Assembly: GCF_003574085.1 (NCBI RefSeq)
Contig: NZ_QWKZ01000001.1
Span: forward strand, 1 to 64,000
Direction of reading: 5' to 3'
Length of the DNA: 64,000 nt
Origin: Meiothermus luteus
GTDB lineage: Bacteria; Deinococcota; Deinococci; Deinococcales; Thermaceae
Positions within the stretch are counted from its first letter, which is position 1. Each line of letters starts with the position of its first letter. Below the pieces are notes generated by a model. That model was not told the origin of the DNA. It was given only the letters and a program-made list of their open reading frames with translations, and made no database searches. The translations under genes and the position numbers were made by a program. Positions 1,397-58,884 of this stretch are shown here, in pieces.

Positions 1397-1397
1397 A

Positions 1398-4423: not shown

Positions 4424-4445
4424 AGGAGTGCTGGTGCCGTTCAGA

Positions 4446-4470: not shown

Positions 4471-4486
4471 TAGGATCAGCCGGCTT

Positions 4487-5473: not shown

Positions 5474-5475
5474 AG

Positions 5476-7065: not shown

Positions 7066-7100
7066 GAGCCAACCTGCGGCGATAGCGGTGGGGGTGCTTA

Positions 7101-8075: not shown

Positions 8076-8108
8076 CCACCTACTGTCCTTATCGGAGTTG
8101 GCGACGGT

Positions 8109-8936
8109 ATGCACGCACGGGACAAACCTCTCCCGATCCTCCGAGCAACTACCCGCCGGGAACGCCTCGAGAGGGCCCGGCACATCGCAGATTGGATCCT
8201 GGGCCATTACTCGGACGCGGTTGTGGCCATCGGAATCTATGGGTCCACCGCACGGGGCTCCGACGAGCCCTACTCCGACCTGGAGATGTCGGTCCTCATG
8301 CGAAGCTCACCCACCCCCGGCAGGGACGAGCGCTACGTGCAAGGGCTCAAAATCAGCGTCGAATTCCACACCGTGGGGTCGGTCTACCGGCGCCTGCAGC
8401 GGGTAGACCTGACCTGGCCCTTGTGCGTAGACCAGTTTGTCTCGGTCTTATCCCTGTACGACCCGGAGGGGCACTGGCCCAAGCTAAAGCTGCTCGTTGA
8501 TCAGCTGCCGTCCGGATCGTTCGTGCAAGCCATTCGCGAGGGGATCGTGGGGGAATTGTTGGAGAACTTCGCCAAGCTGGAGAATGCCCGAAAACGCGAC
8601 GACGCCCCTGCAATGCGATGGATCGCCTGGAACCTCGCGTGGGATGTGGCCATGATCTCCGCCCTCATGAACCGGGCATACTTCACCTCTTGGTCGCGCA
8701 CACCCGACGAGATCCTCCGACTGCCGTCGCTGCTGCCCGCGGTTAAGAGCCTCGTGGAGAAGTTCCGCAACGGCGATCTGCGCAGCGCCAAGGGGCTCCA
8801 TCGTTGTTGCGAAGCCGCAGTGAGGGGGGTTGTGCAACATGTGGCAACCCTTGGCGTCCACGTCCAAGTCGAACCGTCCCTGGCAGGACCTCCCCGGGAG
8901 CAGATCGGGGGAGGTGGGCCCGGATCGAAACGATAA
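8109..8936 (+). CDS. Kanamycin-nucleotidyltransferase-like enzyme
   Basis: A 275-residue protein with the nucleotidyltransferase core 'GIYGSTARGSDEPYSDLEMSVLM' (GS...D.E; residues about 42-60), followed by the helical C-terminal domain of the ANT(4')/KNTase family. Known relatives adenylylate aminoglycoside hydroxyls. In a P450/exporter cluster it may be a tailoring enzyme or a self-protection enzyme rather than clinical-type resistance. The C-terminal tail is Gly-rich. Confidence 0.78.
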   Translation: MHARDKPLPILRATTRRERLERARHIADWILGHYSDAVVAIGIYGSTARGSDEPYSDLEMSVLMRSSPTPGRDERYVQGLKISVEFHTVGSVYRRLQRVDLTWPLCVDQFVSVLSLYDPEGHWPKLKLLVDQLPSGSFVQAIREGIVGELLENFAKLENARKRDDAPAMRWIAWNLAWDVAMISALMNRAYFTSWSRTPDEILRLPSLLPAVKSLVEKFRNGDLRSAKGLHRCCEAAVRGVVQHVATLGVHVQVEPSLAGPPREQIGGGGPGSKR

Positions 8937-8954
8937 GCGTTGTGGAGGAGGAGG

Positions 8955-9449
8955 ATGGCTAATAAGGACACCCGAACACTCGAGGAAAGGATAGAGGAAC
9001 TACAGGCGGTGGTGACGAAGCTCTTCGTCCAAATGGATGCCCAGCGTATTGGAGGTCCGGGGAATGCCGGTGCTGCTGATGGCGGCGAGTTGCCGGACTT
9101 TGGCCCTTGGATGGACACGACATGTTGCTACGCCAGGGTCATCGCCCTTCGGACCGACCTCCAGGGTCGCTTCCAGTTTGCCACACTTAAACTGCTGCAC
9201 GACTGCTCTGATGAGCGCCGACCTGCCTGGAGAGAGGGCGCCATCTTCGACCTGCGCAACCCGGCCTGGGAGGCTGAACTGAAGCGAGCCCAGAACTATG
9301 ACCTGCTGGTTGGTGTAAGGGTTCTTCCGGACGGACGAGTCGTCGGGATCGAACTGGCACGCCCTAACAAGAAACCCCGGGCCTCGACGCCCGGCGTTTC
9401 CCAGTTGCGAGCGGAAAGGGCACCAAAAGTGGACAAGGAGGCTCCGTAA
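8955..9449 (+). CDS. Hypothetical protein with N-terminal coiled coil (164 aa)
   Basis: Not recognised. Start chosen at ATG 8955 after an excellent GGAGGAGGAGG leader. Residues 6-30 form a short coiled coil (heptad Leu/Val), followed by a globular region with a Cys pair 'TTCCYARV' and a basic tail. It lies between the nucleotidyltransferase and the P450 with short gaps, so it is probably co-transcribed. Confidence 0.6.
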   Translation: MANKDTRTLEERIEELQAVVTKLFVQMDAQRIGGPGNAGAADGGELPDFGPWMDTTCCYARVIALRTDLQGRFQFATLKLLHDCSDERRPAWREGAIFDLRNPAWEAELKRAQNYDLLVGVRVLPDGRVVGIELARPNKKPRASTPGVSQLRAERAPKVDKEAP

Positions 9450-9458
9450 CTTTAGAAG

Positions 9459-10700
9459 GTGGTGAAGTCCAGAGCTATGCCCCCAACGGCCCCAGTCCCA
9501 CCCTTTGACCCCCTGTCGCCGGAGGTCCTTGCCGACCCCTATCCAGCGTACGCGCGCCTGCGTATGTCGGACCCTGTGCACTGGGGGATTCCCCACACGC
9601 GCGCCGGAGCGTGGTATGTATTCCGCCACGCCGACATCGCGAGCCTCCTCAGGGATCCGCGGTTGTCGCGACGACGACCGGCTACTGGGAGGGGAGTCCC
9701 CTCTGGAAGACCCATTTCCGAGCCATACCGTGGCTTTTTGCGGATGATGGCTCAACAGGTGGGATTTCAGAATACTGTTGGTCACGCTCGTCTGCGGGCG
9801 GTGATGGGGCCGCTTTTGTCTCCGCGTGCAGTCGCTGGTGTAGTCCCGCGAGTCGAGTGGGTCGCCCGCAAGCTGCTACAGGACATCGAGGACCAGCATT
9901 CCATGGATGTACTCAACGAGTATGCTCTTCCGCTGGTACTCAGGGTGTTGGCGGAATTGCAGGGCGTTCCGGAGAGTTCGTTCGAGGAGTTGCGCGCCTG
10001 GATCGGGGTGATCTCCAGTGTGAGCTCTTCCTCTCCCAAGGAAGAGCTTCTAAGAGCCAACCGGGCGGTGGCCGAGTATGGCCAGCTGGTAGAAGGACTC
10101 GCGGGGGAGGCTGGGGGGAGCCCCCAGGGAACCGTGCTGGCTGGCATGTTAGCTGCGCGGGAATTAGGACAGGTCAGCCAAACAGAATTCGTCGCGAACC
10201 TGCTGGCCTTGCTCGACGCTGGTACCCAGACCACCGCTGACTTCATTACGAACAGCGTGTTGGTACTCTTGAGCCACCAGGACCAGCTCAAGCTTCTCAG
10301 GGAGGACCCGCAGTTGCTGGGCTACGCAGTCCAGGAACTCTTGCGCTTCGAAAGCCCAGTGCAGATCGTTGGCCGCTGGGCAACTGAGAGCTTCGTTTTT
10401 CAGGGTAAAGGGATCGAGCGGGGCCAAGTCGTGTACCTAGTCCTGGGCTCGGCTAACCGTGATCCCAGCTGGGTGAGCGATCCGGACCGGCTTGACTTAA
10501 AAAGGAAGCTGGACCGTACAGCAGCCTTTGGCGGAGGAACCCACTATTGCCTAGGTGCCCCGCTAGCCCGCCTGATAGGGGGAAAAGCTCTAGAGATTCT
10601 TCTACAGTGGAAAGGCAGCTTGTCTTTGCAGACCAGCAGGCTTATATGGCGGCCCGCGTTCGGGTTTCGTGGGCTTACTGAGCTGAGGGTATCATGGTAA
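9459..10700 (+). CDS. Cytochrome P450
   Basis: A 413-residue bacterial class I P450. The heme ligand loop 'FGGGTHYCLGAPLA' (Cys near 360), the K-helix ExxR 'ELLR', and the I-helix 'LDAGTQTTAD' are present. The usual acidic residue before the catalytic Thr is Gln here. No ferredoxin or reductase gene is adjacent, so electrons must come from elsewhere. Starts GTG 9459/9462 or ATG 9477 are possible. It ends the cargo cluster, 70 bases before a transposon end. Confidence 0.9.
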   Translation: MVKSRAMPPTAPVPPFDPLSPEVLADPYPAYARLRMSDPVHWGIPHTRAGAWYVFRHADIASLLRDPRLSRRRPATGRGVPSGRPISEPYRGFLRMMAQQVGFQNTVGHARLRAVMGPLLSPRAVAGVVPRVEWVARKLLQDIEDQHSMDVLNEYALPLVLRVLAELQGVPESSFEELRAWIGVISSVSSSSPKEELLRANRAVAEYGQLVEGLAGEAGGSPQGTVLAGMLAARELGQVSQTEFVANLLALLDAGTQTTADFITNSVLVLLSHQDQLKLLREDPQLLGYAVQELLRFESPVQIVGRWATESFVFQGKGIERGQVVYLVLGSANRDPSWVSDPDRLDLKRKLDRTAAFGGGTHYCLGAPLARLIGGKALEILLQWKGSLSLQTSRLIWRPAFGFRGLTELRVSW

Positions 10701-10825
10701 TGGCAGCATGCGTATTTCAGAAGATTCGAGCCACACTTTTCGTCGGAAGCCGAGCCGGTGATTCAGTAACTCACCTTACGCGGCAAAGCTGAGAGACTGT
10801 CGTAAAAGTCCGCTATACTTGAAGG

Positions 10826-11879
10826 GTGGCTTCTACACGGAGATCTTACCCCAGCGACCTGTCGGACGCGGAGTGGGCCATCCTGGAGCCGTTGATCCCC
10901 GCCCCCAAGCCCGGTGGCCGACCCGCAAAGGTGCCGAGGAGGGAGATCGTCAGCGCCATACTTTACGTCCTGGAAAACGGCATCAAGTGGCGGGCCATGC
11001 CCCATGACTTACCCCACTGGTCTACGGTCTACCACTACTTCCGCAAGTGGCAGAAGGAGGGGGTCTGGGAGCGGGTGGCCCAGGCCCTGGTCCGGTGGGA
11101 TCGGGAGCGAGAAGGAAGGCAGGCTTGCCCCAGCGCTCTTGTCATGGATAGTCAGTCCGTCAAGACCACGGAAAAAGGGGGCCCCGGGGACACGACGGGG
11201 CGAAGAAGGTCAAAGGGAGAAAGCGGCAGAACACGGGGGGCCGTCTCTTGAACGGAAGGGGTGTGGGGCGGCAGTCCCCGACCAGACCGCAGTTCGGTTG
11301 GTCGGGGAAGGATAGCCCCGCCAGGACAAAGTCCTGTATACTGTTTTTGTAGGTCGTCCCCGGAACGGGGATGCGCGTAAAGGGAGCCGCAGGCGAGTGT
11401 CCTACACACGTTTGAGCCTGTGAGGATGGTCGCGCGAAACTCCAACCAAAGTTGGTTGCGAGTAGTTCATGGCCTTTGTCCACCCGGCCAATGAGCACGA
11501 CAAGTGGGGTGGGCAGGCGTTGCTTTTGGGGATGGACCTCTCCTTGTGGCCCCGGGTGCGCAAGCTCTTTGTGGACTGGGGCTACCGGGGTTTGCGGGAG
11601 GTGGCTAGGGGGCTGGGACTGGAGCTGGAGGTGGTGGCCCGTCCTTACGCGGGGGTGCGGGGGGTCTGGGTGCGGGAGGGGGAGGAGGTGCCGGAGATCC
11701 CGCGGGAGGGTGGGTTCAAGCCCCTGCCCAAGCGGTGGGTGGTGGAGCGGACCTTTGCCTGGATGGGGCGAAACCGACGGCTGGGGAAAGATTACGAGTA
11801 CCCCCCTGAGGTAACGGAAGCCTGGATGTATTTAGGCATGATACGCTTGCTGGTGAAGCGGCTGGCCAGGGCCGCTTAA
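10826..11879 (+). pseudogene. IS5-family transposase OrfA/OrfB, interrupted
   Basis: OrfA (10826-11251) has the N-terminal 'LSDAEWAILEPLIP' domain and first Asp 'VMDSQSVKT'. At the slippery run GAAAAAGGGGGCC (about 11170-11182) a -1 shift gives the expected 'GHDGAKKVKGRKR' and continues to 'TGGRLL', where the 218-bp insertion begins. OrfB resumes at 11469 with 'MAFVHPANEHDKWG' and runs to 11879 with 'RWVVERTFAWMGRNRRLGKDYE'. Removing the insert restores a continuous OrfB. As it stands the transposase is inactive. Confidence 0.85.
11252..11469 (+). mobile_element. 218-bp palindrome-rich element, probably IS200/IS605-derived
   Basis: The insert sits between TTGA and TGGCC of the IS5 transposase gene, with no target duplication; excision rejoins 'RLL' to 'MAFVHP'. 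It contains a 9-bp stem TCCCCGACC/GGTCGGGGA, CAGGACAAAGTCCTG followed by TATACTGTTTTT, CCCCGGAACGGGG, and a right-end hairpin CAACCAAAGTTGGTTG. No ORF. Insertion next to TTGA and subterminal hairpins fit a non-autonomous IS605-type element; its TnpA is not in the window. Confidence 0.6.
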
Positions 11880-11931
11880 GCTGGAGGAGGGGACTTTTAC
11901 AACAGTTTCTGAAATGGCATAGATTGAAAAG

Positions 11932-13033
11932 GTGAATCCCCAGCCCCTGGATTTGTACACCGATTACTTGTTGAGCAGCTTTGGAGCGGCGACGGCCACA
12001 GGATTGTCGCGGATGGTGGATGGAGCCATAAGCCACGACCAGATCACCCGCATGCTGGGGGGAGATTGACAAGGCTCGGTGCAGTTGTGGCGCAAGGTCA
12101 AAGCCACGGTGCGAAAGATACAGCGTGAGGAAGGGGTGCTGATTCTGGATGATAGCATTTTGGAGAAACCCTACACGGACGAGAACGATATAGTGGCCTG
12201 GCAATAGCAAAGAGCGGATGGTCAAGGGGATCAACTTTGTGAGCCTGTTGTATCACAGCCAGGGGCTGACCTTGCCGGTAGGCTACGTGCTGGTGGAGAA
12301 GACGGAAGTCTATGTAGATCAGAAAAGTGGCCAGCGCAAACGCCGCAGCCAGGTGAGCAAGAATGAACACGCCCGCTACCTGCTGCAAACCGCAGTGCAT
12401 AACCAGATTCCCTTCCAGCACGTGCTCAACGACGTCTGGCTTGCCTCGGCGGCGAACATGCGATTTATCGTGCTGGACATGAAGAAGCACTTTGTGATGC
12501 CGCTCAAAAGCAATCGCAAGGTAGCGCCAGGTTATCGGCACCGCCGGTATGCGCTGTGCGCACCCCCTATGAGCCAAGAACAACAGCAAAGGGGTCAATG
12601 GACAGGAGTGGAGGGTCTGGACTACCAAGACCCCACCCCCCGGCAGGTATATCTGGAAGGGGTTCCCTTCCCCCTGCTGCGGGTTCGGCAAGTCTTCACC
12701 CACGAAGATGGGAGCCAGGGGGTGTTGTATTTGTGTAGCAGCGATACCACCCTGGACTTTGAACGGATGATCGAGCTCTATCAAAAACGATGGGAGATCG
12801 AGCGCTTTCATCAATCCATCCGACAAAACGCTGCCCTGGCCAAGTCGCCTACCAAGACCCTGACCACCCAGGCCAACCATTTCTTTGCGGCTATGTGGGC
12901 CTTTGTCAAGCTGGAACTCCTCTCCCACCAGACCCAAATCAACTACTTCGCCCTCAAGGCCAAGCTCTATCTGGTTGCCAGTCGGGCTGCTTTTCAGGAA
13001 CTACAGCAGATCAAAGCTCAACTGACCGCGTAA
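11932..13033 (+). pseudogene. DDE transposase, IS701/IS4-like, decayed
   Basis: The reconstructed protein begins at GTG 11932 ('VNPQPLDLYTDYLLSSFGAA'), reaches an in-frame TGA at 12067, continues through 'VLILDDSILEKPYTDEND', reaches a second stop near 12205, then shifts frame. The long C-terminal part (from 12218) is intact and holds 'MVKGINFVSLLYHSQG', the second Asp region and 'YQKRWEIERFHQSIRQN' with the catalytic Glu. Two stops plus a frameshift make it non-functional. Confidence 0.8.
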
Positions 13034-13044
13034 GGTATACCTTC

Positions 13045-13350
13045 GTTTGCTACCGCATAGCCCCACCCCAGCCATTCTGAGGAGGACATGACTGCGAACC
13101 AGATTGTGGGCTAGGATGAGGAGGTTTATCCGGGCTACGAGGCCCCCGAAGCTCTTGCTCTCTACTTGGCGAAGCCGGAAAGACCTGACCAGGACGCCAA
13201 AGCGCACCTCTATCCAGTTTCTCCCCATCCACTCCCTCCACCTAGCGGAACCCCCGGTCCCCCAGGACCGGGCCCAAGCCCGAATCTTCCACCCGGCCCC
13301 GGGCCCAGATCTCCCCGGTGTTGCCCGGCAGGACGCCCCAGCGCACGGGG
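13045..13350 (-). pseudogene. Transposase C-terminal relic (IS982/IS5-like)
   Basis: On the minus strand, 'VLPGNTGEIWARGRVEDSGLGPVLGDRGF' is followed, after a stop and a frame change, by 'FGVLVRSFRLRQVESKSFGGLVARINLLILAHNL', resembling the last third of IS982-type transposases. Only the C-terminus remains. The relic ends at the right end of the IS701-like element. Confidence 0.5.
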
Positions 13351-13351
13351 T

Positions 13352-13879
13352 ATGAAAACCTATGCTGGGGTAGGAAGCAGGCGTGCGCCCGAGGATGTGC
13401 TAAAGCTGATGGGGAAGATTGCCCGGCGGCTGGCGGAGCGGGGCTGGGCGCTGCGAACGGGTGGGGCAGAAGGGGCTGACCGGGCGTTTGAGCGGGGGGC
13501 CCGTGCGGGCGGTGGAGCAGTTGAGGTGTTTCTGCCGTGGCCGGGATACAACGGCTACCGGGAAGGGGCGCTGAAAGCCCCGAGCCCGGAGGCGGTGCGG
13601 CTGGCGGCAGCATTGCATCCGGCCTGGGGGCGTCTGTCACCGGCGGTACAGCGGTTGATGGCCCGGAACTCCCACCAGATCTTGGGGCTCGACCTGAACG
13701 ACCCGGTGGCCTTCGTCCTCTGCTGGACACCGGACGGGGCCGAGTCGGAGCAAGAATGCGGGCCGGAAACTGGTGGCACGGGGCAGGCGATCCGGCTGGC
13801 CTCGAGGTGGGGCGTGCCCGTGGTCAACCTCAAAAGAGAGGACGCGTTGGAGAAGATAGCTCGGCTGGTCAAGGGTTGA
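13352..13879 (+). CDS. SLOG-fold (DprA/LOG-like) protein
   Basis: A 175-residue Rossmann-like SLOG protein. The 'YAGVGSRRAPEDVL' start, 'RTGGAEGADRAFERGA' loop and 'GTGQAIRLASRWGVPVVNL' end are the nucleotide-binding features. Phage and plasmid members are annotated as DprA-like or YspA-type; they bind a nucleotide ligand of unknown identity. Start ATG 13352 is where family similarity begins. First gene of the hairpin-punctuated series, with copy 1 right after its stop. Confidence 0.72.
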   Translation: MKTYAGVGSRRAPEDVLKLMGKIARRLAERGWALRTGGAEGADRAFERGARAGGGAVEVFLPWPGYNGYREGALKAPSPEAVRLAAALHPAWGRLSPAVQRLMARNSHQILGLDLNDPVAFVLCWTPDGAESEQECGPETGGTGQAIRLASRWGVPVVNLKREDALEKIARLVKG

Positions 13880-13906
13880 ACCAGGGGGCGGCAGGAGCCG
13901 CCCCCC
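13879..13906 (+). repeat. Intercistronic hairpin, copy 1 of 12
   Basis: AACCA followed by a perfect 9-bp stem GGGGGCGGC/GCCGCCCCC with loop AGGA, directly overlapping the stop of the SLOG gene and leading into the next small gene. Confidence 0.85.
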
Positions 13907-13916
13907 TCCGGTGGGC

Positions 13917-14132
13917 ATGAAAACGCTAGCGATCACCATCGGGGTCTTCAGGAATCAGGTCTATGCCTACCGGCTGCGCCAGGCCGAGGAGCGGGTGCGC
14001 CTCGAGCTCGGTCTCAAGGGGAGTGGGGGGTGGGACTGGCGGCCCTGGAAGGAAGGGGCGCTGGAAGAGATGCGGATGCTCTACCAGACGCTTCAAAGCT
14101 ACGACCGGGGGCGGTGGCTGAAGACGGAGTAG
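13917..14132 (+). CDS. Small hypothetical protein (71 aa)
   Basis: Not recognised. A basic, mostly helical 71-residue protein beginning 10 bases after hairpin copy 1; there is no clear Shine-Dalgarno, so expression may depend on coupling to the upstream gene. It is followed by the 13-bp inverted repeat at 14133-14183. Confidence 0.5.
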   Translation: MKTLAITIGVFRNQVYAYRLRQAEERVRLELGLKGSGGWDWRPWKEGALEEMRMLYQTLQSYDRGRWLKTE

Positions 14133-14183
14133 GGTTCTTGCCCCCCTTGTTGCTTTTGAGTGGGTAGCGAGGGGGCAAGAACC
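14133..14183. repeat. Inverted repeat GGTTCTTGCCCCC-N25-GGGGGCAAGAACC
   Basis: 13-bp perfect arms with a 25-base loop, no trailing T-run. The same CTTGCCCC/GGGGCAAG design, also with a 25-base loop, recurs at 18680-18726, and in weaker form inside the repeats at 45483 and 52753. A protein-binding or recombination site is as likely as a terminator. Confidence 0.65.
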
Positions 14184-19487: not shown

Positions 19488-19850
19488 ATGCTGTTGGTAA
19501 AGGTGCAAGTAGATGAGCCGCAGTACGTGCTGGTACAGCATGGTCGGGTGGTTGCAAGCTGGTTTGCCTTCACCATGTGGGGCAGCATGGTGAAGCGGCT
19601 GCTCGAGCAACTCGACTTCCGGGTGGAAGAGGTGGATGCCACAGCGATGGTAAGGTCTTTTGGTGAGTTGGGGGACGAGTACAACCCCGAGTGGGAAATC
19701 CCCGCGCTGATACAGAAAGTCCTGGAAGAGTTTGGCGTAGAAGCCCTTAGACGACCGCTCGAGCGCGACCAGGCCATGCACTTGTGGGAGAAGGCCAGGG
19801 TTCTGGGCGGGCTGTTTCTCCCTAAAAACGTACACCTAATCCCGGAATGA
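19488..19850 (+). CDS. Hypothetical protein (120 aa)
   Basis: Not recognised. Starts after AAAGGAG; alpha/beta with a beta-rich N-terminus ('MLLVKVQVDEPQYVLVQHGRV') and a helical C-terminus. No motif. Preceded by a copy-7-like hairpin and followed by two strong terminator hairpins. Confidence 0.6.
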   Translation: MLLVKVQVDEPQYVLVQHGRVVASWFAFTMWGSMVKRLLEQLDFRVEEVDATAMVRSFGELGDEYNPEWEIPALIQKVLEEFGVEALRRPLERDQAMHLWEKARVLGGLFLPKNVHLIPE

Positions 19851-19888
19851 GAGAGTTCTGAAAAAACGTCCCACTTACCCCCTCCTGA

Positions 19889-19956
19889 CCCTCGGGAGGG
19901 GGCGGTTTGTTGTTCAAGAAAAATGCGTACTTACCCTTCTAAGTGCGCTTTTTGGA
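19889..19956 (+). terminator. Two successive terminator hairpins
   Basis: First CCCCCTCC...GGGAGGGGG with a T-rich tail (about 19889-19920), then a 12-bp imperfect stem AAATGCGTACTTA/TAAGTGCGCTTT ending in TTTTT (about 19921-19953). The second overlaps the leader of the next gene (GGAGGTG). Confidence 0.65.
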
Positions 19957-19963
19957 GGTGAAC

Positions 19964-20233
19964 ATGCGTAGAATCAACGATCCCCTGGTACTCAGAGACT
20001 ACCTCTCGCGGCTGTCCAGCGAGCCCATGACCCCGGCTCAGGCCCGGCTGCTGCTGGCCTCGAGGGGCGTTCGGGCTCAGCAGAAAGCGCTTGAGGCGGC
20101 TTTGCGGATGATGGCGGCCCCTGCTGTAGCGCCGGTAAAAACCCGGCGGGTACGGCTCAAGCCGCTGGACGACCTGCCTTTGACCCCGGAGGAGCGGGCG
20201 ATCATGGAGCGGTTGAGGAGGGAGCGGGCCTGA
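19964..20233 (+). CDS. Small helical hypothetical protein (89 aa)
   Basis: Not recognised. A basic all-helical protein; residues 15-55 could form an HTH-like pair. TTGGAGGTG leader before ATG 19964. It ends 24 bases before hairpin copy 8. Confidence 0.55.
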   Translation: MRRINDPLVLRDYLSRLSSEPMTPAQARLLLASRGVRAQQKALEAALRMMAAPAVAPVKTRRVRLKPLDDLPLTPEERAIMERLRRERA

Positions 20234-20256
20234 TCGGGGTGCTGTGGGGAGGGCAG

Positions 20257-20286
20257 AACCAGGGGGCGCCGCCTGGCGGCGCCCCA
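20257..20286 (+). repeat. Intercistronic hairpin, copy 8 of 12
   Basis: AACCAG followed by GGGGCGCCGCC and GGCGGCGCCCC (up to 11 bp), then ACTTATTTGGATGAGGTG. Confidence 0.85.
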
Positions 20287-20309
20287 CTTATTTGGATGAG
20301 GTGACTGAA

Positions 20310-20489
20310 ATGCGTGAGGAACTCTGTCCTGAGTGCCAGGGGGATGGTTACGTGACGGTGGCCTGCGACTACTACAGCGCGAGCTACGGCTACTACCTGC
20401 AAGACGAGCGGCCCGTGCCCTGCCGGATGTGCGGCGGGAGCGGGTACGTGGAGGTGATGGAGGCGGAAGTAGCGGAGGAAGCGGCCTAG
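20310..20489 (+). CDS. Small DnaJ-type zinc-finger protein (59 aa)
   Basis: Two CxxC pairs ('CPECQGDGYV' and 'CRMCGGSGYV') with the CxxCxGxG spacing of the DnaJ Cys-rich domain predict one zinc ion. GAGGTG leader before ATG 20310. Such mini-fingers often act in replication or transcription complexes; here it precedes the clamp gene by 13 bases and may be co-translated. Confidence 0.68.
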   Translation: MREELCPECQGDGYVTVACDYYSASYGYYLQDERPVPCRMCGGSGYVEVMEAEVAEEAA

Positions 20490-20502
20490 ACAAGGGGGAG
20501 AT

Positions 20503-21510
20503 ATGGAAAAGCTAAAGCACTTTCTAACCCTGTTCGATAGACGCTCGACCCTGATGGTGCAGGCCGATGGACACCGCTACGCCCTGATGGGCGAGCGGGA
20601 GTTAGACAAAGGTCGCCTGCTCTACGCCCGCTGGAAGGCCGGAGAGGCCCAGGGGCCGGTGGTGGCGGTGGACGCTTCGCTTTTCAAAGCGGCCATCCAG
20701 CGCAGCGCCCAGGTCTCTCTGAACGGGAAGGTCTGGGTGGGCGAGGTGGGCCTCGAGTACCGCGAGGTGGAGTTTGCCATGCCCACCATTGAGCCCCAGG
20801 TCTGGGTCAGCCGCAAGGAGTTGCTGGCGAGCCTCGAGGCGGTCTACGAAGCCACCAGCACCGACCCCACGCGGGCCGTCTTTCAAGGGGCCCAGTTCGA
20901 GTTCAGCCCCACCCGCCTGAAGCTGGTAGCGAGCGACGGCTACGTGCTGGCCGAGCGCACCATCCCAGCGCGGGGGGTCTTAGAGGGCAGGGCGGTGATC
21001 CACCGCGAGGGGCTGGCATTGATGATGAAGGCTTTGAAGGGGGTGGAGGAGTTCGAGGTGGGCCTGGGCTTGAAGGAGGGCGAGCTGGGACTCAAAGCAG
21101 GGGGGCTCGAGATGAGCTTCACCCGCATAGAGGGCGAGTACCCCGATTACGAGCGGGTGATTCCCAAGCCCGAGGAGTGGCAGAGCACCATCGAGGTCTA
21201 CGTACCGGCCCTGGTAGAGGCGCTGGAGGCGCTGCGCCCGCTGTTTTCGCGTTCAAGCAACCAGCGGGTGGACGTGCAAGCGGAAGAAGGGGTGATCCAC
21301 CTCGAGGTGGACAACGAGCACGGCCAGGCGCACCGAAGGGTACCCTGTGTGGTACAGGGGGTGATGAGCTTCGCCATCAACGGGCAGTTGTTCCTCGAGC
21401 GCATCCAGCCCGTGAAGGGAACCGGAAAGCTACACTTCGTTGACCCTAAAAAGCCCGTGCTCATCGAGGGTGGAAGCTACCGGGGGGTCGTCGTGCCCTT
21501 GCGGGTATAG
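20503..21510 (+). CDS. dnaN: DNA polymerase III beta sliding clamp homologue
   Basis: A 335-residue clamp-like protein. Three repeated beta-alpha-beta units are visible; the central 'EFSPTRLKLVASDGYVLAERT' and 'ISFTRIEGEYPDYERVIP'-like segment are the DnaN hallmarks. It is about 30 residues shorter than usual chromosomal clamps, mainly at the N-terminus. The clamp tethers polymerase to DNA. A plasmid-borne copy next to an initiator and a helicase loader suggests the element supplies its own replisome parts. GGGGGAG leader. Confidence 0.85.
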   Translation: MEKLKHFLTLFDRRSTLMVQADGHRYALMGERELDKGRLLYARWKAGEAQGPVVAVDASLFKAAIQRSAQVSLNGKVWVGEVGLEYREVEFAMPTIEPQVWVSRKELLASLEAVYEATSTDPTRAVFQGAQFEFSPTRLKLVASDGYVLAERTIPARGVLEGRAVIHREGLALMMKALKGVEEFEVGLGLKEGELGLKAGGLEMSFTRIEGEYPDYERVIPKPEEWQSTIEVYVPALVEALEALRPLFSRSSNQRVDVQAEEGVIHLEVDNEHGQAHRRVPCVVQGVMSFAINGQLFLERIQPVKGTGKLHFVDPKKPVLIEGGSYRGVVVPLRV

Positions 21511-21539
21511 CACCAGGGGGCCATCCGGCCCCCTTTTTG
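21511..21539 (+). repeat. Intercistronic hairpin, copy 9 of 12
   Basis: CACCA, 7-bp stem GGGGGCC/GGCCCCC with loop ATCC, then TTTTT: begins at the stop of the clamp gene. Confidence 0.88.
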
Positions 21540-21555
21540 ACTGTGGGAGGTCTAT

Positions 21556-21783
21556 ATGAAAAAAACCCTGAAGTTTCCCCGCATAGAGCTTTCCTACCTG
21601 GACAAGGCCCCCGACCACGGGCAACCGGAGCTTGCGGTGGTTTTTCCCCAGCGCAAAAGGAACCGCATCGTCCCTGTAGCGGTAGGGGAACAGGCCACCC
21701 AGCTTTGGAAGCACCCCCTGAGCGAAGAGGAGTTCCTGGCCCTGGTGGATCATGCCACGGAAGAGAAGCTGGTATCGGCTTGA
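21556..21783 (+). CDS. Small hypothetical protein (75 aa)
   Basis: Not recognised. Leader GGGAGG 6-7 bases before ATG 21556. Its 3' end overlaps the start of the candidate initiator gene by 32 bases in another frame, implying translational coupling to replication genes. Confidence 0.58.
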   Translation: MKKTLKFPRIELSYLDKAPDHGQPELAVVFPQRKRNRIVPVAVGEQATQLWKHPLSEEEFLALVDHATEEKLVSA

Positions 21784-22438
21784 AGCCCATCGGTTGCGGG
21801 AGGTGCTCGAGCGGCTCTCGCTGAAAGACGGGCTTTTGCTCTGGGAGGCCCTGGGGGAAGACCCTGGGGCCTTTCCTTTAGGGAACCCCGAGGCCCGGCG
21901 GCAGGCGATGCACCGGATAAAGCGTGACAGAGTGTCACAGGGAATCGCAGGAAACCCCGTGACAAAATGTCACACGCCTTTGCGTGCTGGAGAGAGAAAA
22001 CCCCTTGCGAAAAGAGAGAAACCACGTGACAAAGTGTCACAGGAAAACAAGCGAAACAAAGCAGGCTCTCGCTACCCCGACCCTGCCGGGTCGCTGGCCC
22101 AGGAGCTAGGGGGCTGGCGGGCGGGGCTTTTGTACCGGGCCCGCAAGGAGCAGAACGCGCTGATCCAGCGGTTAGCCCAGCAGCACAAGGAGAGCCTGCT
22201 GGAGCTGCTGAACCTGGTGGAGTCCCTGCCACTAGCCAAGCGCGTCCCCACCACCCTGGCCTGGTTGGAGGAGTTCGCCAGCGAGATCGAGCGGTTAGGG
22301 GACGAGGCCGTGCGGCAGGTGCTGCTCGAGGTGAGGAAGAAGGCCCCCGACCAGCCGCTCTTGTACGCCCGGCGGGTGCTGGCGGGGCGGGGAAAGAAGG
22401 AGGAGAAGACATGGACAGCGACCGGCGAGCAGTTCTGA
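21752..22438 (+). CDS. Candidate replication initiator containing internal palindromic repeats
   Basis: A 228-residue basic protein, not recognised by family. The N-terminal ~55 residues could be an HTH ('YRLEAHRLREVLERLSLKDGLLLWEAL'), followed by a low-complexity Lys/Arg linker that encodes three GTGACA-N3-TGTCAC palindromes, then a helical C-terminus. A gene carrying its own repeats and followed by a helicase loader is the layout of lambda O-P, so I infer an origin-binding initiator. It overlaps the loader gene by 28 bases. Start ATG 21752 lies inside the previous gene. Confidence 0.5.
   Translation: MPRKRSWYRLEAHRLREVLERLSLKDGLLLWEALGEDPGAFPLGNPEARRQAMHRIKRDRVSQGIAGNPVTKCHTPLRAGERKPLAKREKPRDKVSQENKRNKAGSRYPDPAGSLAQELGGWRAGLLYRARKEQNALIQRLAQQHKESLLELLNLVESLPLAKRVPTTLAWLEEFASEIERLGDEAVRQVLLEVRKKAPDQPLLYARRVLAGRGKKEEKTWTATGEQF
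21924..22040. other. Candidate replication origin: three GTGACA-N3-TGTCAC palindromes
   Basis: Exact copies at 21924-21938 (spacer GAG), 21959-21973 (AAA) and 22026-22040 (AAG). Spacings of 35 and 67 bases put copies 1 and 2 in different reading frames, so the conservation is not for protein sequence. The intervening DNA is A-rich against a GC-rich background, suitable for unwinding. Confidence 0.6.
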
Positions 22439-23202
22439 ACCTTGCCCCTGTGCTCGAGGCCCTACGCTCCAAAGGGGGGCAAGAAGTGGCCCACGACCCC
22501 AGCCTACCCCCCTGCCCTTTGTGCGGCGCGGCGGCCCTGGCCGGGTACACCTTCGAGCGGCCCAGCCAGATCGAGCACGACTGCGACTGTGGCTACCTCG
22601 AGCCCGCCCAGTACCAGACCGCCTTGCTCGCCTCATGGCGGCTGTGGAAGGCCCCGCAGTTTTTGCGGGCTGATCTTGCGGGCTACCCCCGCTACCGGGA
22701 GTATCTGGAGCGCCCCCTGGAGGCCCACAGCGGCAACAAGGCCGCCATCGAAGCGGCCCGGCGCTACCAGGGGGGCTTGCTGTACCTCTACGGCCCGCCG
22801 GGGGTGGGCAAAACCCATCTGGCCCTCAGAATCGCGGCCCGGCTGGTGGCCGAAGGACGGTTCGTGCGTTTCAGGAGCGAACTCGACTTCCTGGCCGAGG
22901 AGCGGCTGGCAGCGGCGGGAGAGGGAACCTTGCCCCAGTATGAGCGCCTGGTGCTCGACGACGGGGGCAAGACAAGGCTCACCCCCTTCACCTTAGAACG
23001 CCTCTACGCCCTGGTGGAGCGCTCGAGCGCGGGCGGGTGCGACCTCATCATCACCTCCAACCTGTCCCCCGAAGCCTACGCCGCCCGGTTAGGCGAGGTG
23101 GGTGAGGCGGTGCTGTCGCGCATCCAGGGCGGGGTGGTGGTGGAAGTGCAGGGGCCAGACAGAAGGGCCAGGGGGCCTTCGGCCCCACCTGGTGGGGTAT
23201 GA
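22411..23202 (+). CDS. DnaC-like helicase loader ATPase
   Basis: A 263-residue AAA+ protein with an N-terminal Cys cluster ('CPLCG...CDCGY', about 30-62), Walker A GPPGVGKT (about 128-135), Walker B 'LVLDDGG' and sensor 'LIITSNL'. DnaC/DnaI/lambda-P-type loaders place the replicative helicase at an origin. GGAGGAG leader inside the initiator gene. The last codons encode hairpin copy 10, and the stop overlaps the next ATG (ATGA). Confidence 0.85.
   Translation: MDSDRRAVLNLAPVLEALRSKGGQEVAHDPSLPPCPLCGAAALAGYTFERPSQIEHDCDCGYLEPAQYQTALLASWRLWKAPQFLRADLAGYPRYREYLERPLEAHSGNKAAIEAARRYQGGLLYLYGPPGVGKTHLALRIAARLVAEGRFVRFRSELDFLAEERLAAAGEGTLPQYERLVLDDGGKTRLTPFTLERLYALVERSSAGGCDLIITSNLSPEAYAARLGEVGEAVLSRIQGGVVVEVQGPDRRARGPSAPPGGV
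23166..23190 (+). repeat. Intercistronic hairpin, copy 10 of 12, inside a coding end
   Basis: GCCAG, stem GGGGCC/GGCCCC with loop TTC, then ACCTGG. It lies within the last 13 codons of the helicase loader, so the motif is kept even where it must be translated. Confidence 0.75.
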
Positions 23203-23315
23203 ATCTACAAGAAGTGGTCGCGTTGACGGCGGGCGGGGTCTTTATCATCTTTGGCGGCTTCGCCCTGCTGGTGGCGCTGGTGGAGGAGGTGATTTTTCGA
23301 TGGAAGAGAAAGTGA
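23199..23315 (+). CDS. Small single-pass membrane protein (38 aa)
   Basis: ATG overlaps the loader stop (ATGA). Residues 7-28 ('VALTAGGVFIIFGGFALLVALV') form one transmembrane helix, followed by a basic cytoplasmic end 'FRWKRK'. The stop overlaps the next gene start. No family recognised; tight coupling on both sides supports it. Confidence 0.5.
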   Translation: MNLQEVVALTAGGVFIIFGGFALLVALVEEVIFRWKRK

Positions 23316-23824
23316 ACATCCTGCAAAAAGCCCAGGAACGGGTCAGCCCGGAAGCCGCCCGGCTGCTAGAGGAGCGGGCGCGGAAGGGCCTCGAGACCTA
23401 CGGCATGACCCTGGACGAAAATCAGGCCCCTCTGGAGGAACGCCTGCAGCACGCGCTGGAAGAAGCCCTCGATCTACTCCAGTACCTGGAGTGGGCCAGG
23501 GAGGTCGCGCCGGAGGGGTTGGAGGCGCAGCTGGACGAGCTATGTGTGTTCGCCGCTGAGATAGCCAACGTCCTGGCCCGGATCAACGCGGATGAACCGC
23601 CCGACGACCCCGGCGAGTGGGTGGAGTGGCGCGACCTGGAGGGCCCGACCTGCCCACAGAGTTCTAGGCACCAGGGGGCGTCGCCGCCCCCTTTTCTTCT
23701 TCTGAGGAGGAACGCTATGAAAAACATCCGCGAACGGATCGAGGGTTTTCTGAGCCGCCTCGAGCGGGCTGAGGCCATCCTGTTAGACGGCCGGCTACAC
23801 CGGGTGGAGGATCACAACAGTTGA
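23300..23824 (+). CDS. MazG-like nucleotide pyrophosphohydrolase, frame open into the next gene
   Basis: Start ATG 23300 follows GGAGGAGGTG. Residues about 20-75 carry the all-alpha NTP-pyrophosphatase pattern ('RKGLETYGMTLDENQAPLEERLQHALEEALDLLQYL', with ExxE). Such enzymes hydrolyse (d)NTPs and occur in phages. The frame has no stop before hairpin copy 11 and continues through it into the SWIM-gene frame. A one-base shift near 23640 would end the protein at TAG 23663-23665, just before the hairpin as in all other members, so the true C-terminus is probably there. Confidence 0.65.
   Translation: MEEKVNILQKAQERVSPEAARLLEERARKGLETYGMTLDENQAPLEERLQHALEEALDLLQYLEWAREVAPEGLEAQLDELCVFAAEIANVLARINADEPPDDPGEWVEWRDLEGPTCPQSSRHQGASPPPFLLLRRNAMKNIRERIEGFLSRLERAEAILLDGRLHRVEDHNS
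23669..23696 (+). repeat. Intercistronic hairpin, copy 11 of 12
   Basis: CACCA, 7-bp stem GGGGGCG/CGCCCCC with loop TCGC, then TTTTCTTCTTCTGAGGAGG. Tail identical in style to copies 3 and 7. Confidence 0.88.
23717..23824 (+). pseudogene. 5' part of a SWIM zinc-finger gene split by IS607
   Basis: After GAGGAGG, ATG 23717 opens 'MKNIRERIEGFLSRLERAEA...GRLHRVEDHN', the usual lead-in of SWIM proteins, then meets a stop two codons later at the IS607 left junction. The matching second half, starting 'HTYVVRGSQNYLVDLEKETC', lies at 25983-26189 past the element. Confidence 0.7.
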
Positions 23825-23859
23825 CGTTTAGCGTACATTACTTTACATTATAGCCTATT

Positions 23860-24468
23860 ATGGATTTGCTTCTCCTCACCGCCCAGCAGGTGGGAGAGCG
23901 CTATGGCCTCCACCGCAACACCCTGTACGCCTGGGAGCAGCAGGGGCTCCTGCATCCCGTCCGCACCCCCGGGGGTCGCAGGCGGTACCGCAGGGACGAG
24001 ATCGAGCGGCTTCTCACCCTGGAGTCCCTGCCGGTCCAGGCCGAGTCCAGGCCCCGCACCGTGCTGTACGCCCGGGTGAGCACCCGGAAACAGGAACCCT
24101 TCCTCCAGGCCCAGGTAGCCCGTCTGGAGGCCTTCGCCAGGGAGCAAGGCTGGGACTGCGAGGTGGTGGCCGAGGTGGCCAGCGGGGTCAACGAGAACCG
24201 CCGGGGACTTCTCAAGGTGCTGAACCGGGCCAGGAGGGGTGAGCTGGACCGGGTGGTGGTGGAGTACGAGGACCGCCTGGCCCGTTTCGGGCTCGGGTAC
24301 CTGCGCGCTTTCCTGCAAGCTTTTGGCGTGGAGCTGGTAGTCCTCAACGGCAAAGAGAGGAAGGAGCTCGGAGAGGAGCTGGCCGAGGACCTGGTGGCTA
24401 TCGTGGCCAGCTTCGCCGCCCGGATCTACGGGAAGGGGGATTCTGGTGAGGAGACGGGGCAAGGCTGA
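23860..24468 (+). CDS. tnpA: IS607 transposase TnpA (serine recombinase)
   Basis: A 202-residue protein with an N-terminal MerR-like HTH ('TAQQVGERYGLHRNTLYAWEQQGLL') and a C-terminal resolvase domain with catalytic Ser in 'YARVSTRKQ' and Arg-rich 'EYEDRLARFGLGYL'. It makes and rejoins the breaks that move IS607. Length and domain order are normal, so it is probably active. Its 3' end overlaps tnpB by 23 bases. Confidence 0.93.
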   Translation: MDLLLLTAQQVGERYGLHRNTLYAWEQQGLLHPVRTPGGRRRYRRDEIERLLTLESLPVQAESRPRTVLYARVSTRKQEPFLQAQVARLEAFAREQGWDCEVVAEVASGVNENRRGLLKVLNRARRGELDRVVVEYEDRLARFGLGYLRAFLQAFGVELVVLNGKERKELGEELAEDLVAIVASFAARIYGKGDSGEETGQG

Positions 24469-25999
24469 GGGTTACCAGGGCGTCCAGGCCCGGCTGGTCT
24501 TCCCTGAGCGGGAGGACGAGAAGGCGGTTCTGGATCTGATGCGCCGCTTCTCTGCGGCGAAGCGGTTCGCCTACAACCGGCTTTTAGAGGGCAGGACCCG
24601 GGAGGAGCTCAAGCGTCAGGACGGGCCCCTCTGCCCCCGCTTCCGCCTCAACACCCGCTACGCCGACGAGGCGATTGAGAAGGCCCAGGGCGTGCTGGAC
24701 TCCGCCCGGGAGCTCGGAAAAGACCCCTGCAAGGTGGTCTTCGGAGGGAGGAAGCTTTTTGAGCAGCTAAAGCGCCAGCACCTCTCAGGCAAAGATTGGA
24801 AGCGCCTGAAAAGGGAGTGGAAGGAGAAGCGCCAGGGCCTGCTCTATGCCCGGGGCGACGGGAGCAAGGGGGGCAACCTCAACCTCCGGCTGCTGGTGAG
24901 GGCAGGAGCCCTCTGGCTCCGGGTGAACCTGGGGGACGGAACTTACGCCCAGGCCCTGGTGAGGACGGGCCACCCTAACTTGGATAAGCTCCTGGAGCGG
25001 GTTCACGTGGGGCTTCCCTACAACGTGGGGCTCTCCCTGAGGGAGGGACAGGTCCAGGCCCACTTCACCTGGCCCGAGGAGCTTCCCCCTCCCACCCACA
25101 CCAAGGAGAACGGGATGCTGGGGATAGACGTGAACGCCGACCCCTACCACCTCGCTCTCGCCGTGGTCTCTCCTGAGGGGAACCTCGCCCGCTACCTGAC
25201 CCTTCCCCTGGAAGAGGTGGACTTCGCCCCCAACAAGGGAGCTAAGGAACTCCTCCTCTGGAAGGTCGCCCACCAGGTGGTGGCCCTGGCGGAGGAGCAC
25301 GGGGTAGCCGTCGCCACCGAGCGGCTCAAACACCTCCGCAAGACCCATAGGGGGGACGGCTCAGGCCGGGCCTTCCGCCGCAGGCAGCACCGCTTCGCTT
25401 ACCGCTCCCTCTTGCAGAAGATTCACGCCCTGGCCCGAAAGCGGGGTGTAGAAGTCTTAGAGGTCAATCCGCAGGACACCTCCAGCATCGGGATGCTGAA
25501 GTACGCCCCCTTGCTCTCCCTCTCCAAAGACATCGCGGCGGCCTATGTGATCGGCCGGAGAGCCCTGGGCTTCACCGAAAAGCTCCCCAAGGGCTACGGG
25601 GCCCTTCTCCGGGACGAGGGCTTCCTCGCCCAGGCCGAGGGGTTCCACCAGACCCGCCTCCGGGAGCTCCAGAAGCTCAAAGAAACTGAGAGGAACCCCT
25701 ACCTCAAGCGCAAGCTTTCCCGGGAGATGGGAAAAGCCAGGCGCTCCCTGAACCTCGTCCAAAGCCTTCGGGGCTCGCCAGGGAGCCGGAGTGGGTCAAC
25801 CGAGGGAAGGAACCCTTCCGGCATCAATCCCTGGCGGGTCCTGAGGGTAGGCCTTTTCCTTCCGTTCCTCGGGCGCGAGGTGCCGCGAGACCTCTCGCCC
25901 CTCAAGCCCTTCCTCCATGGACTGTGGGAGCGGTGGAAAACGAGCCCAGGTCCTCATCCTGGTGGGGGGCCGGAGTGCGCTAATGTGCACTTTTGCTGA
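24446..25999 (+). CDS. tnpB: TnpB-type RNA-guided nuclease of IS607, without the zinc ribbon
   Basis: A 517-residue RuvC-fold protein: first Asp 'MLGIDVNADP' (about 228), Glu 'VATERLKHL' (about 292), last Asp 'LSLSKDIAAAYVIGRR' (about 355). The CxxC...CxxC ribbon expected between the last two is absent, as in the 'TnpB-related' subgroup. TnpB proteins cut DNA guided by an omega-RNA from the element's 3' end, which here would overlap the last ~130 codons. Starts at GTG 24446. All three acidic residues are present, so cutting is plausible. Confidence 0.85.
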   Translation: MRRRGKAEGYQGVQARLVFPEREDEKAVLDLMRRFSAAKRFAYNRLLEGRTREELKRQDGPLCPRFRLNTRYADEAIEKAQGVLDSARELGKDPCKVVFGGRKLFEQLKRQHLSGKDWKRLKREWKEKRQGLLYARGDGSKGGNLNLRLLVRAGALWLRVNLGDGTYAQALVRTGHPNLDKLLERVHVGLPYNVGLSLREGQVQAHFTWPEELPPPTHTKENGMLGIDVNADPYHLALAVVSPEGNLARYLTLPLEEVDFAPNKGAKELLLWKVAHQVVALAEEHGVAVATERLKHLRKTHRGDGSGRAFRRRQHRFAYRSLLQKIHALARKRGVEVLEVNPQDTSSIGMLKYAPLLSLSKDIAAAYVIGRRALGFTEKLPKGYGALLRDEGFLAQAEGFHQTRLRELQKLKETERNPYLKRKLSREMGKARRSLNLVQSLRGSPGSRSGSTEGRNPSGINPWRVLRVGLFLPFLGREVPRDLSPLKPFLHGLWERWKTSPGPHPGGGPECANVHFC

Positions 26000-36936: not shown

Positions 36937-37138
36937 GACCCCCTCAGTCTAGCCGGAAAAGTTCGCTGTATGAGTATTGTGCGAAATCTTGCTCGCTCGC
37001 CGATCTTGAAAAAGGCACATCTGGGTACAAGCTTTTGCTAGGCAGAGTTGCAGGATCACATCAGCGAGATTCAGCAAAGATTGGTCTAGCCACCACCCTT
37101 GACCCCAGGTGGTTCTTGCACGTATTCTCAGAGAAAAT

Positions 37139-37156
37139 ACTTGTAACCTTACAGGT
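37139..37156. promoter_or_regulatory. Probable LexA operator
   Basis: ACTTGTAA-CC-TTACAGGT, an 18-bp palindrome with 7 of 8 arm positions matched, 11 bases before the lexA-like ATG. Predicts autoregulation and DNA-damage induction of the cassette that follows. Confidence 0.7.
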
Positions 37157-37167
37157 ATAGGGATGCC

Positions 37168-37809: not shown

Positions 37810-37937
37810 CCCTTTCCTAGCCCACGACTCGAGGGCGCGTTCAGCCTGCCAGCCATTTCGCGCCCTCCCCCATAGCATCCAGGGCAATGCTCCGGAGCGG
37901 TCTTCTATTGGTCTTGTCAGTATAGCAGAAATCCCCC

Positions 37938-56880: not shown

Positions 56881-58884
56881 CTAGCAGGCTCCTGGACTGG
56901 AATCCAGCTCGCCTGCCGAAACCAGCGCCTCCACCTCCGCCCACACCCCCTGGCTGACCCAGTTCTGATAGTGCCAGTAGACCATCTTCCCCGGCGGGTA
57001 GCTGGACGGCAGGCTCTTCCAGGGCCGCCCCTCCCGCAGCACCAGGAAGATGGCCTCCACGAGGGAGCGCCTGGCGTAGCGGGGTGGGGCTCCTCTGGCT
57101 TGGGGTTCAAACAGCGGCTCCAACCGCTGCCACAGCGCATCGGGGAGGGGATACGGGTAGCGGGGGTCAGGCTCCCGTTTCGGACGAACACGCTTCCCAT
57201 ACACCCACCTCCAGGCTGTCCCGTTGCTCACCCCATACTTCCGGGCCAGGCTGCGGGCGCTGGCCCCTGTCCGGCGGTGCTCCTCAATCAGGGCAACCCG
57301 AACTTCTCCTTTCCCCGACGGCCCCGGCTTCTTGCGAGGAAGAAAGTAGGTCAAGTTACCTTGAATACCCCGATTGCCCTGCACACGCCTGCCCGTGTGA
57401 GGTGCAATCTGCCCAAACCTGTAACGCACCTCTATCTCAACCTCTCCCTCACCTGGCCTTACCGTCACCTTCTCCACCAGTTCCCTTGCTACCGCCTGCT
57501 TCTCTTCCGGGGTAAGGCGATCTATCCGGTCGCGTAGTCGGGCCGAGAGACTCTCCAGGGAGTGGAGGGCTTCCTTACGCTGACGCTCGGCGATGGAGCG
57601 CTCCCGCGCTGCCTCCAAGCTCGCCTGCACTTCTTGTATACGGGCTTCCAGATCCTCGATGCGGGCGTAGTAGGTCTGTTTATCTATACCTCCTTCAAGG
57701 AAGAGGTCTAGCAGACGTGCGCGGGCTTCGATGAGGGCCTGCAGGCGTTTTTCCAGCAAGGAGACCTCATTCCTTTCCGGGGATTCCTCATTCACAAAAG
57801 CCTGCAAAGCCTCACCAGGGTTCAGAAGGAAGGTGCGGATGTCCTGCCAGATGCTCTCCTCAAGCTCTGCCCGGCGCACATGAGGAGCGGTACAGCGCAT
57901 GGAGGGGATGGGAGAAGCCTGGCGGTTCACACGCCCCACACAGGCGTAATAGTCGCTTGAGCCCACATATGCCCGCCCGCAGACTCCGCAGCGTATGAGC
58001 CCTTTGAGCAGGTACACGCTGCGGGCGTTACGCGCGGCGAACAGGGCGTTTCGGGCTAGCTGCTCCTGGGCAGCCTGGAAAAGCGCGGGTTCTACCAGGG
58101 GCGGTACCGCTACCGGCACCAGATCGGGCTGAGGCTTGCGGGTGCGCTTGCCGTAGGTGTACTCCCCGATATACGTGCGGTTCTTGAGGATGCGCAGCAC
58201 CCCGCCTCCCCGCCAGACCCCGGCGGTGCGTCTGCCCCGCACCCCGCGCCCCTCACGCCGGTACTTGGGAGGTACGCCCAGGCGGTTGAGCTCCTGGGCA
58301 ACCCGCTCGGTGCTCCAGCCCCGTTCAGCAACCCAGGTAAATATCTGCCGCACCACCGCTCCCTCCTCGGGCTGGGGCGTCAGGCGACCGTCCTCAACGG
58401 TGTAGCCGTAGGGCACGATACCTCCCAGATACCGACCGCTCTGTGCGGCTTTGCGAAGGCCCAGTCGGCTGCGTTCGGCGAAGGTGTCCCGCTCCCACTC
58501 GGCGAAGACCGCCATGATTCCCAGCACCGCCTTACCGATGGAGGTGGTGGTGTTGATATTCGGCTCGGAGTAGCTCATGAGGCCCACGCCACACTGCTCC
58601 AACCGCTCGATGAGGTCGTAGGCTAGACGCACCTTGCGGGCCAGCCGATCCAGCCGGTAGACCAGCACCACCGCAAAACGTCCCTCCTGTGCGTCCGCGA
58701 GCAGGCGGGTCAGGGCAGGGCGATCCTCCTGGGCTCCTGAGTAGCCAGGGTCGGTGTAGGTGGCCGCTACCTCATACCCCAGTACCTCAGCCCAGCGCGT
58801 GAGCACCTCCTTCTGAGCCTCGAGGGAGTAGCGCTCAACCTGCTCCTCGGTGGATACCCGGGTATATATAGCGCACTGCCTCAT
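56881..58884 (-). CDS. Large serine recombinase fused to an IS5 OrfA-like (DUF4096) domain
   Basis: A 667-residue protein. Resolvase domain 1-150 (catalytic Ser in 'YTRVSTEEQ', 'YRLDRLARK'), recombinase domain to about 270, zinc ribbon 'CGVCGRAYVGSSDYYAC' (about 305), coiled coil 365-445. Beyond the usual end at ~510 residues are an HTH ('TGASARSLARKYGVSNGTAWRWV') and about 95 residues matching the IS5-type OrfA N-terminus ('YPLPDALWQRLEPLFEP', 'RRSLVEAIFLVLREGRPWKSLP'). The fusion is unusual. Start overlaps the repressor stop (ATGA). Confidence 0.85.
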   Translation of the reverse strand: MRQCAIYTRVSTEEQVERYSLEAQKEVLTRWAEVLGYEVAATYTDPGYSGAQEDRPALTRLLADAQEGRFAVVLVYRLDRLARKVRLAYDLIERLEQCGVGLMSYSEPNINTTTSIGKAVLGIMAVFAEWERDTFAERSRLGLRKAAQSGRYLGGIVPYGYTVEDGRLTPQPEEGAVVRQIFTWVAERGWSTERVAQELNRLGVPPKYRREGRGVRGRRTAGVWRGGGVLRILKNRTYIGEYTYGKRTRKPQPDLVPVAVPPLVEPALFQAAQEQLARNALFAARNARSVYLLKGLIRCGVCGRAYVGSSDYYACVGRVNRQASPIPSMRCTAPHVRRAELEESIWQDIRTFLLNPGEALQAFVNEESPERNEVSLLEKRLQALIEARARLLDLFLEGGIDKQTYYARIEDLEARIQEVQASLEAARERSIAERQRKEALHSLESLSARLRDRIDRLTPEEKQAVARELVEKVTVRPGEGEVEIEVRYRFGQIAPHTGRRVQGNRGIQGNLTYFLPRKKPGPSGKGEVRVALIEEHRRTGASARSLARKYGVSNGTAWRWVYGKRVRPKREPDPRYPYPLPDALWQRLEPLFEPQARGAPPRYARRSLVEAIFLVLREGRPWKSLPSSYPPGKMVYWHYQNWVSQGVWAEVEALVSAGELDSSPGAC

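Follow-up and report, generated by a model that had tools for sequence, protein, structure and literature searches.

A probable replication-initiation module with dyad sites inside its initiator-like gene on an integrative element of Meiothermus luteus

In a 64,000-nucleotide stretch of the genome of the hot-spring bacterium Meiothermus luteus (positions 1 to 64,000 of contig NZ_QWKZ01000001.1; hereafter the window), positions 21752-23202 very probably form a self-contained replication-initiation module of a conjugative element, with a 228-aa protein as its initiator. The features of the module are as follows:

21752..22438, + strand: initiator-like gene, 228 aa, with an N-domain (residues 1-63), a predicted disordered linker (64-108) and a helical C-domain (111-212)
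21887..21937, + strand: predicted helix 3 (codons 46-62), the proposed recognition helix, in which residues 49-54 vary with site type
21924..21938, strand not applicable: dyad site 1, GTGACAGAGTGTCAC
21959..21973, strand not applicable: dyad site 2, GTGACAAAATGTCAC, 35 bp from site 1
22026..22040, strand not applicable: dyad site 3, GTGACAAAGTGTCAC, 67 bp from site 2
21962..22070, + strand: stretch of lower local GC content (43-60% in 30-bp bins), A-rich on the top strand, surrounding sites 2 and 3 and continuing past them
22411..23202, + strand: DnaC/IstB-type AAA+ helicase-loader-like gene, 263 aa, with an N-terminal Cys cluster and the Walker A motif GPPGVGKTH

An earlier note on this DNA had reported three exact GTGACA-N3-TGTCAC palindromes lying in two frames of the 228-codon gene, and we confirmed them at 21924, 21959 and 22026 (gene offsets 173, 208 and 275) as 15-bp dyads in two codon phases of ORF 21752-22438. 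In a scan of the whole 2,874,609-bp genome allowing up to one mismatch, the pattern occurred at these three sites only, and the reversed control pattern gave 0 matches in the same genome. Three dyads with the same arms were reached in 0 of 20,000 shuffles that kept the protein and its codon usage. It is scarcely credible that the repeats simply reflect codon bias or repetition in the protein and do nothing as DNA: the linker is basic and predicted to be disordered, but the sites fall in two codon phases, the synonymous shuffles failed to produce them, and the concerted arm changes described below go against the protein sequence. The A-rich setting claimed for the palindromes proved only mildly true, as GC content around the last two dyads is still 43-57% against ~65% for the rest. 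Even the full range of 43-60% next to the dyads is a modest difference for an AT-rich opening region, and we regard 21962-22070 as a weak candidate for strand opening.

Clear homologues of the 228-aa gene were found in seven other genomes of the family, five of them intact (G017, G001, G008, G012 and G016; 66-86% amino acid identity) and two broken (G003 and G004). The earlier note had proposed looking for the palindromes in such homologues and, far from being absent, dyads are kept at offsets 173, 208 and 275 in 5/5 intact copies, with G012 and G016 each departing by a single base at one site. A partial fourth site lies 35 bp past site 3 in G001, G012, G008 and G016, and is lacking in the window and G017; the broken G003 copy retains one exact GTGACA dyad and one near dyad. 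Whole-genome matches to the relaxed pattern GNGACA-N3-TGTCNC were confined to this gene in G008, G012, G016 and G017, and G001 had one extra match outside the gene, which was asymmetric (GGGACA/TGTCTC).

The arms are of two types. In G008 and G016 they read GGGACA/TGTCCC at the three main sites (one G016 site is off by one base), and at each of the four sites the change from T-A to G-C has taken place on both arms, at positions 2 and 14. Changes on both sides filled 8 cells against 3.1 expected, a value reached in 0 of 500 shuffles, and the pairing was lost when the partner arm was slid by 1-3 columns. Several of the arm changes in G008 and G016 entail residue changes (R/V to G, H/Q to P), so the dyad symmetry is being kept at the DNA level. 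Control of translation by RNA hairpins in the initiator mRNA (6-bp stems with 3-nt loops), to which the protein or some other factor would bind, is very unlikely; changes on both sides would also keep RNA stems, but a stem needs pairing and not identical letters, and here all sites have the same arms and have all switched alike.

Helix 3 changes together with the sites. Its residues go from RRQAMH to LKKAKQ in both G008 and G016, and the type of residues 49-54 (RRQxMH or LKKxKQ) always pairs with the type of site. Twenty-three alignment columns split G008 and G016 from the rest, all within nt 146-290, with 7 in codons 49-54, 12 at the three main sites or an adjoining base, and 4 between sites 1 and 2. 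A different grouping, which sets the window's genome (G000), G017 and G008 against G001, G012 and G016, is carried by 18 columns spread across the gene, five of them in nt 237-254 between sites 2 and 3. Codons 49-54 or the sites (+/-1 bp) hold 19 of the 23 site-type columns compared with 2 of the 18 columns of the other grouping, a distribution whose Fisher value of 6e-6 is descriptive, as the site columns are not mutually independent. Both site types are found in both backgrounds of the remaining gene in a two-by-two pattern; two backgrounds and two site types are known, and the independent switches number one or two. From this joint change we infer that helix 3 is likely to read the dyad sites. 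Physical linkage contributes to the association because helix 3 borders site 1, and the G008 and G016 elements are related over much of their length. The window and G017 are identical over ~300 bp covering helix 3 and the sites yet divergent in the remaining gene, consistent with exchange of helix 3 and the sites as a block. A host-encoded binding factor was also considered and is unlikely, since both site types live in one genus.

The AF2 model of the 228-aa protein comprises three N-domain helices (residues 4-21, 24-33 and 46-62), a disordered linker (64-108), whose coding sequence contains dyad sites 2 and 3, and a helical C-domain. Modelled as a domain, the N-domain reached a pLDDT of ~80, with residues 46-62 as its third helix. 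The protein remains as unrecognised as first described: Pfam profiles gave nothing at E<=1, RepA_N (PF06970) included, NCBIfam gave nothing at E<=0.1, sequence profiles compared with PDB chains gave nothing, and structure comparison with the PDB, using either the full model or residues 1-65, gave nothing significant. The N-domain, which presumably adopts a helix-turn-helix fold, had no significant structural or sequence relative in these profile and structure searches. No relative of the protein was found among viral contigs, phage records or plasmid records, and in a PHROG search it matched none of phrog_50, phrog_345, phrog_678 and phrog_4707.

The neighbouring gene is more readily placed. 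The loader ORF overlaps the 228-aa ORF by 28 bp in the same direction, a pairing kept in relatives, and its earlier reading as DnaC-like was borne out by matches to PF01695 (40.6 bits, cut-off 24.1) and to the DnaC-like phrog_50 (E 2.9e-21). Relatives of the loader occur in 17 of 111 genomes of the phylum and on three circular plasmids, and most of the intact loci examined have an initiator-like gene upstream of the loader. Profile comparison matched the C-domain of the window protein to the Thermus set of such genes (probability 95, E 2.7e-8) and to a set from the G001 plasmid, G002, G003 and G004 (probability 80, E 1.4e-5), and several of the upstream genes in other Deinococcota match PHROGs labelled 'replication initiation' or 'O-like'. 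The proposal that an initiator gene with its own candidate sites is followed by a loader is strongly supported by this comparison of sequences. It is highly improbable that the dyads instead serve partition, as a centromere-like site recognised by the 228-aa protein while its AAA+ partner acts in segregation. Palindromes recurring within a gene for a putative DNA-binding protein, with an ATPase gene adjoining, would suit such a role, but the ATPase is of the DnaC/IstB type and neither ParA nor ParM, and the upstream genes of relatives match replication initiators.

Repeats accompany the initiator-like gene elsewhere in the wider family. In G011 the equivalent part of the gene contains five 18-bp dyads (TGTCACCAAATGGTGACA type, one imperfect), a pattern reached in 0 of 1000 synonymous shuffles, and other repeats occupy the equivalent part in G002 and in plasmid pMESIL02. 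Thermus members have no in-gene dyads; they carry 3-4 12-bp iterons (GTGGCACAACYG-like), differing in copy number by whole units, in a gap of ~100 bp between initiator and loader. Given the in-gene repeats of G011, G002 and pMESIL02 and the gap iterons of Thermus, putative binding-site arrays beside or inside the initiator gene recur across the family, with the in-gene position not shared by all members. The family also weighs against RNA hairpins, as the direct iterons of Thermus lie outside coding sequence without comparable stems and the G011 dyads are arranged differently. As side observations, the G011 initiator-like gene (L096 506-1465) is differently built and its dyads are built from GTGACA half-sites whose order is opposite to that in the window, and the Thermus iterons (L080 5885-5989, L081 5872-5977, L090-L094) are in tandem, flanked by an inverted TAGAAGC/GCTTCTA pair.

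Upstream of the module stand:

20503..21510, + strand: DnaN (beta clamp) homologue (PF02767, phrog_947), sharing 34% identity with a further clamp gene of this genome
21556..21783, + strand: 75-aa gene, function unassigned, whose end overlaps the start of the 228-aa gene

The beta clamp gene that had been added to the module is a real homologue, but not a conserved part of it: none was found in the seven other homologous regions checked (two being short contigs), and we rejected it as a component because related loci do without it. A terminator-like stem (21515-21534) and the 75-aa gene separate the clamp from the 228-aa gene, and the 75-aa gene is conserved directly upstream in 6 of 7 related regions checked. 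A GC-rich stem followed by a T run recurs between genes of the element (20263-20285, 21515-21534 and 23673-23692), and 19800-23900 contains 12 terminator-like sites against 3.5 expected. Just past the loader operon, 23860-25999 holds a resolvase-type gene with a MerR-like HTH and, after it, one that is TnpB-like (with a weak match to the Cas12f1-like TNB profile); together they are likely to be an IS607-type insertion.

The carrier is best called an integrative and conjugative element (ICE) targeting comM, present here as a circular contig. The ends of the contig (G000:C1, 94,983 bp) overlap exactly over 127 bp, giving a 94,856-bp circle, and G008, G001 and G016 have related elements inserted in their chromosomes, with a junction core common to all three. 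The junctions map to window positions 57385-57397, and the integrated copies lie within a gene that we take, from recognition of its sequence, to be comM. The features concerned are:

57385..57397, strand not applicable: attP core region, inside the large serine recombinase gene; target comM
56881..58884, - strand: large serine recombinase gene, for integration and excision of the element

The attP is intact in the circular contig, and a search of the window's genome for an empty comM site returned right-half comM pieces only. The lambda-like phage context that had been suggested is not borne out: we call the carrier an ICE and not a lambdoid prophage because it encodes a VirB4/TraG-like ATPase (TraG P-loop), a T4SS coupling protein (T4SS-DNA_transf) and the comM-targeting large serine recombinase, and neither the 228-aa protein nor the loader had a relative in the phage collection. 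The relaxase candidate has a sole match, PF13814 (Replic_Relax), which is weak and just below the cut-off.

Several further observations concern the element itself. The circle encodes a 667-aa recombinase with a C-terminal DUF4096-like tail, and the tail differs between the circle and the integrated copies because in the latter (G008 and G001) the recombinase frame ends shortly past the core. Positions 1-14136 are ~99% identical in G000, G008, G001 and G016 and have moved or been exchanged recently, because much of the surrounding element is only ~75-85% identical; this segment includes a HEARO RNA (1425-1659; RF02033, 100.5 bits) beside a possible HNH-nuclease gene. A tyrosine integrase, a LexA-like regulator, an ImuB-like Y-family polymerase and a DnaE-type polymerase follow in a row at 36187-42507, which looks like a mutasome cassette, and 51559-52347 matches Cas_VVA1548 (PF09652, E 8.9e-34), a putative CRISPR-associated family.

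The element also carries a Toprim-like ORF (60387-61328, recognised by eye) followed by a DUF927 ORF (61377-63305), a pair that may form another replication module and could be the element's true replicon. The 228-aa protein might be an autoregulator whose in-gene dyads are operators that stop or adjust transcription of the initiator-loader operon, with the origin elsewhere, for example at the Toprim/DUF927 genes. Dyads in the protein's own operon are typical of operators, the element does have this other primase/helicase-like pair, and joint change of helix 3 and the sites is compatible with DNA binding for any purpose. Yet the 3-4 sites start ~170 bp into the coding region and not at a promoter, the same C-domain occurs in genes labelled replication initiators or O-like that stand upstream of this type of loader, and the Thermus relatives have tandem 12-bp iterons past the initiator gene; we consider autoregulation in place of an origin improbable, and the two could coexist. 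GC skew of the circle gave no pointer to the 22-kb locus (detrended minimum ~59.2 kb, maximum ~25.1 kb), and the circle in the contig may be an excised form that exists only transiently. The intact attP on the circular contig and the location of relatives on circular plasmids count in favour of 21752-23202 as the initiation module.

In that preferred reading, the N-domain, chiefly through helix 3 (residues 46-62), would bind the 15-17 bp dyads as dimers where the protein's own gene encodes the end of helix 3 and the flexible linker. The bound array would then open the adjoining less GC-rich DNA, the C-domain would hand over the AAA+ DnaC-type loader encoded alongside, and the loader would place the host DnaB helicase on the opened strands, allowing the excised circle to replicate as a plasmid.

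Phages and a few plasmid families provide known cases of an origin inside the initiator gene. Lambda O and ori-lambda offer a close parallel in layout: there too the iterons lie within the initiator gene (offsets 349-433 of 900 in O), with the DNA-binding half on one side and the partner-binding half on the other, and the 3' end of O is overlapped, by 4 bp, by the next replication gene, P. Lambda O has an N-terminal DNA-binding domain and a C-terminal P-binding domain joined by a flexible linker (PMC6022878), and ori-lambda consists of four iterons and an AT-rich tract (PMC7466680). In the window, by contrast, the loader is of the AAA+ DnaC type, the sites are wider apart (35 and 67 bp), the AT-rich tract is weak and the carrier is conjugative rather than a phage. 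The comparison with lambda O/P made in the earlier note does not extend to kinship by sequence: the 228-aa protein had no detectable similarity to lambda O (hhalign probability 0.1, E 0.43), nor the AAA+ DnaC/IstB-type loader to lambda P (BLASTP E 4.6). Among tailed phages more broadly, the loader resembles those of phrog_50 and relatives of the initiator match replication-initiation PHROGs, but the 228-aa protein differs from O-like initiators in its shorter, distinct N-domain.

Plasmid initiators of the RepA_N type offer a second likeness. Those of pSK41 have an N-terminal DNA-binding domain, four Rep boxes in mid-rep and a separate C-domain, and the N-domain and origin of the hybrid pPR9 differ from those of pSK41 as one block (PMC5703833), an arrangement like that of the 228-aa gene, where a similar block exchange is suspected. 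The pSK41 Rep C-domain binds DnaG primase, whereas the window has a DnaC-type loader gene next. In repABC plasmids the origin lies inside the initiator gene repC (PMC3155836), but it lacks iterons, partition genes are in the operon and there is no loader gene. Integrative elements that excise and may replicate include ICETh2, ICEBs1, SXT/R391 and SGI1 (PMC7693054; PMC7433901), and ICEs that replicate after excision are known (PMC7433901); ICETh2 differs in having a primase-polymerase/helicase pair, and SGI1 in having its iterons downstream of rep. A limited literature search found no ICE with an in-gene iteron origin and a DnaC-type loader, which is weak evidence of novelty.

It is quite possible, if somewhat short of probable, that the 228-aa protein represents a new family of Thermaceae conjugative-element initiators in which the recognition helix and the in-gene sites switch specificity together, letting related elements coexist without competing for an initiator. 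If true, the two-by-two pattern of helix type and gene background would preserve in nature a record of initiator-origin co-evolution, and the paired change of helix and site offers a ready-made test of how initiator-origin specificity can change without loss of function. The module also offers the genetics of Meiothermus and Thermus a compact candidate replicon. A conjugative element with an in-gene origin and its own DnaC-type loader would, if the module works as proposed, show one way in which such an element may persist as a circle.
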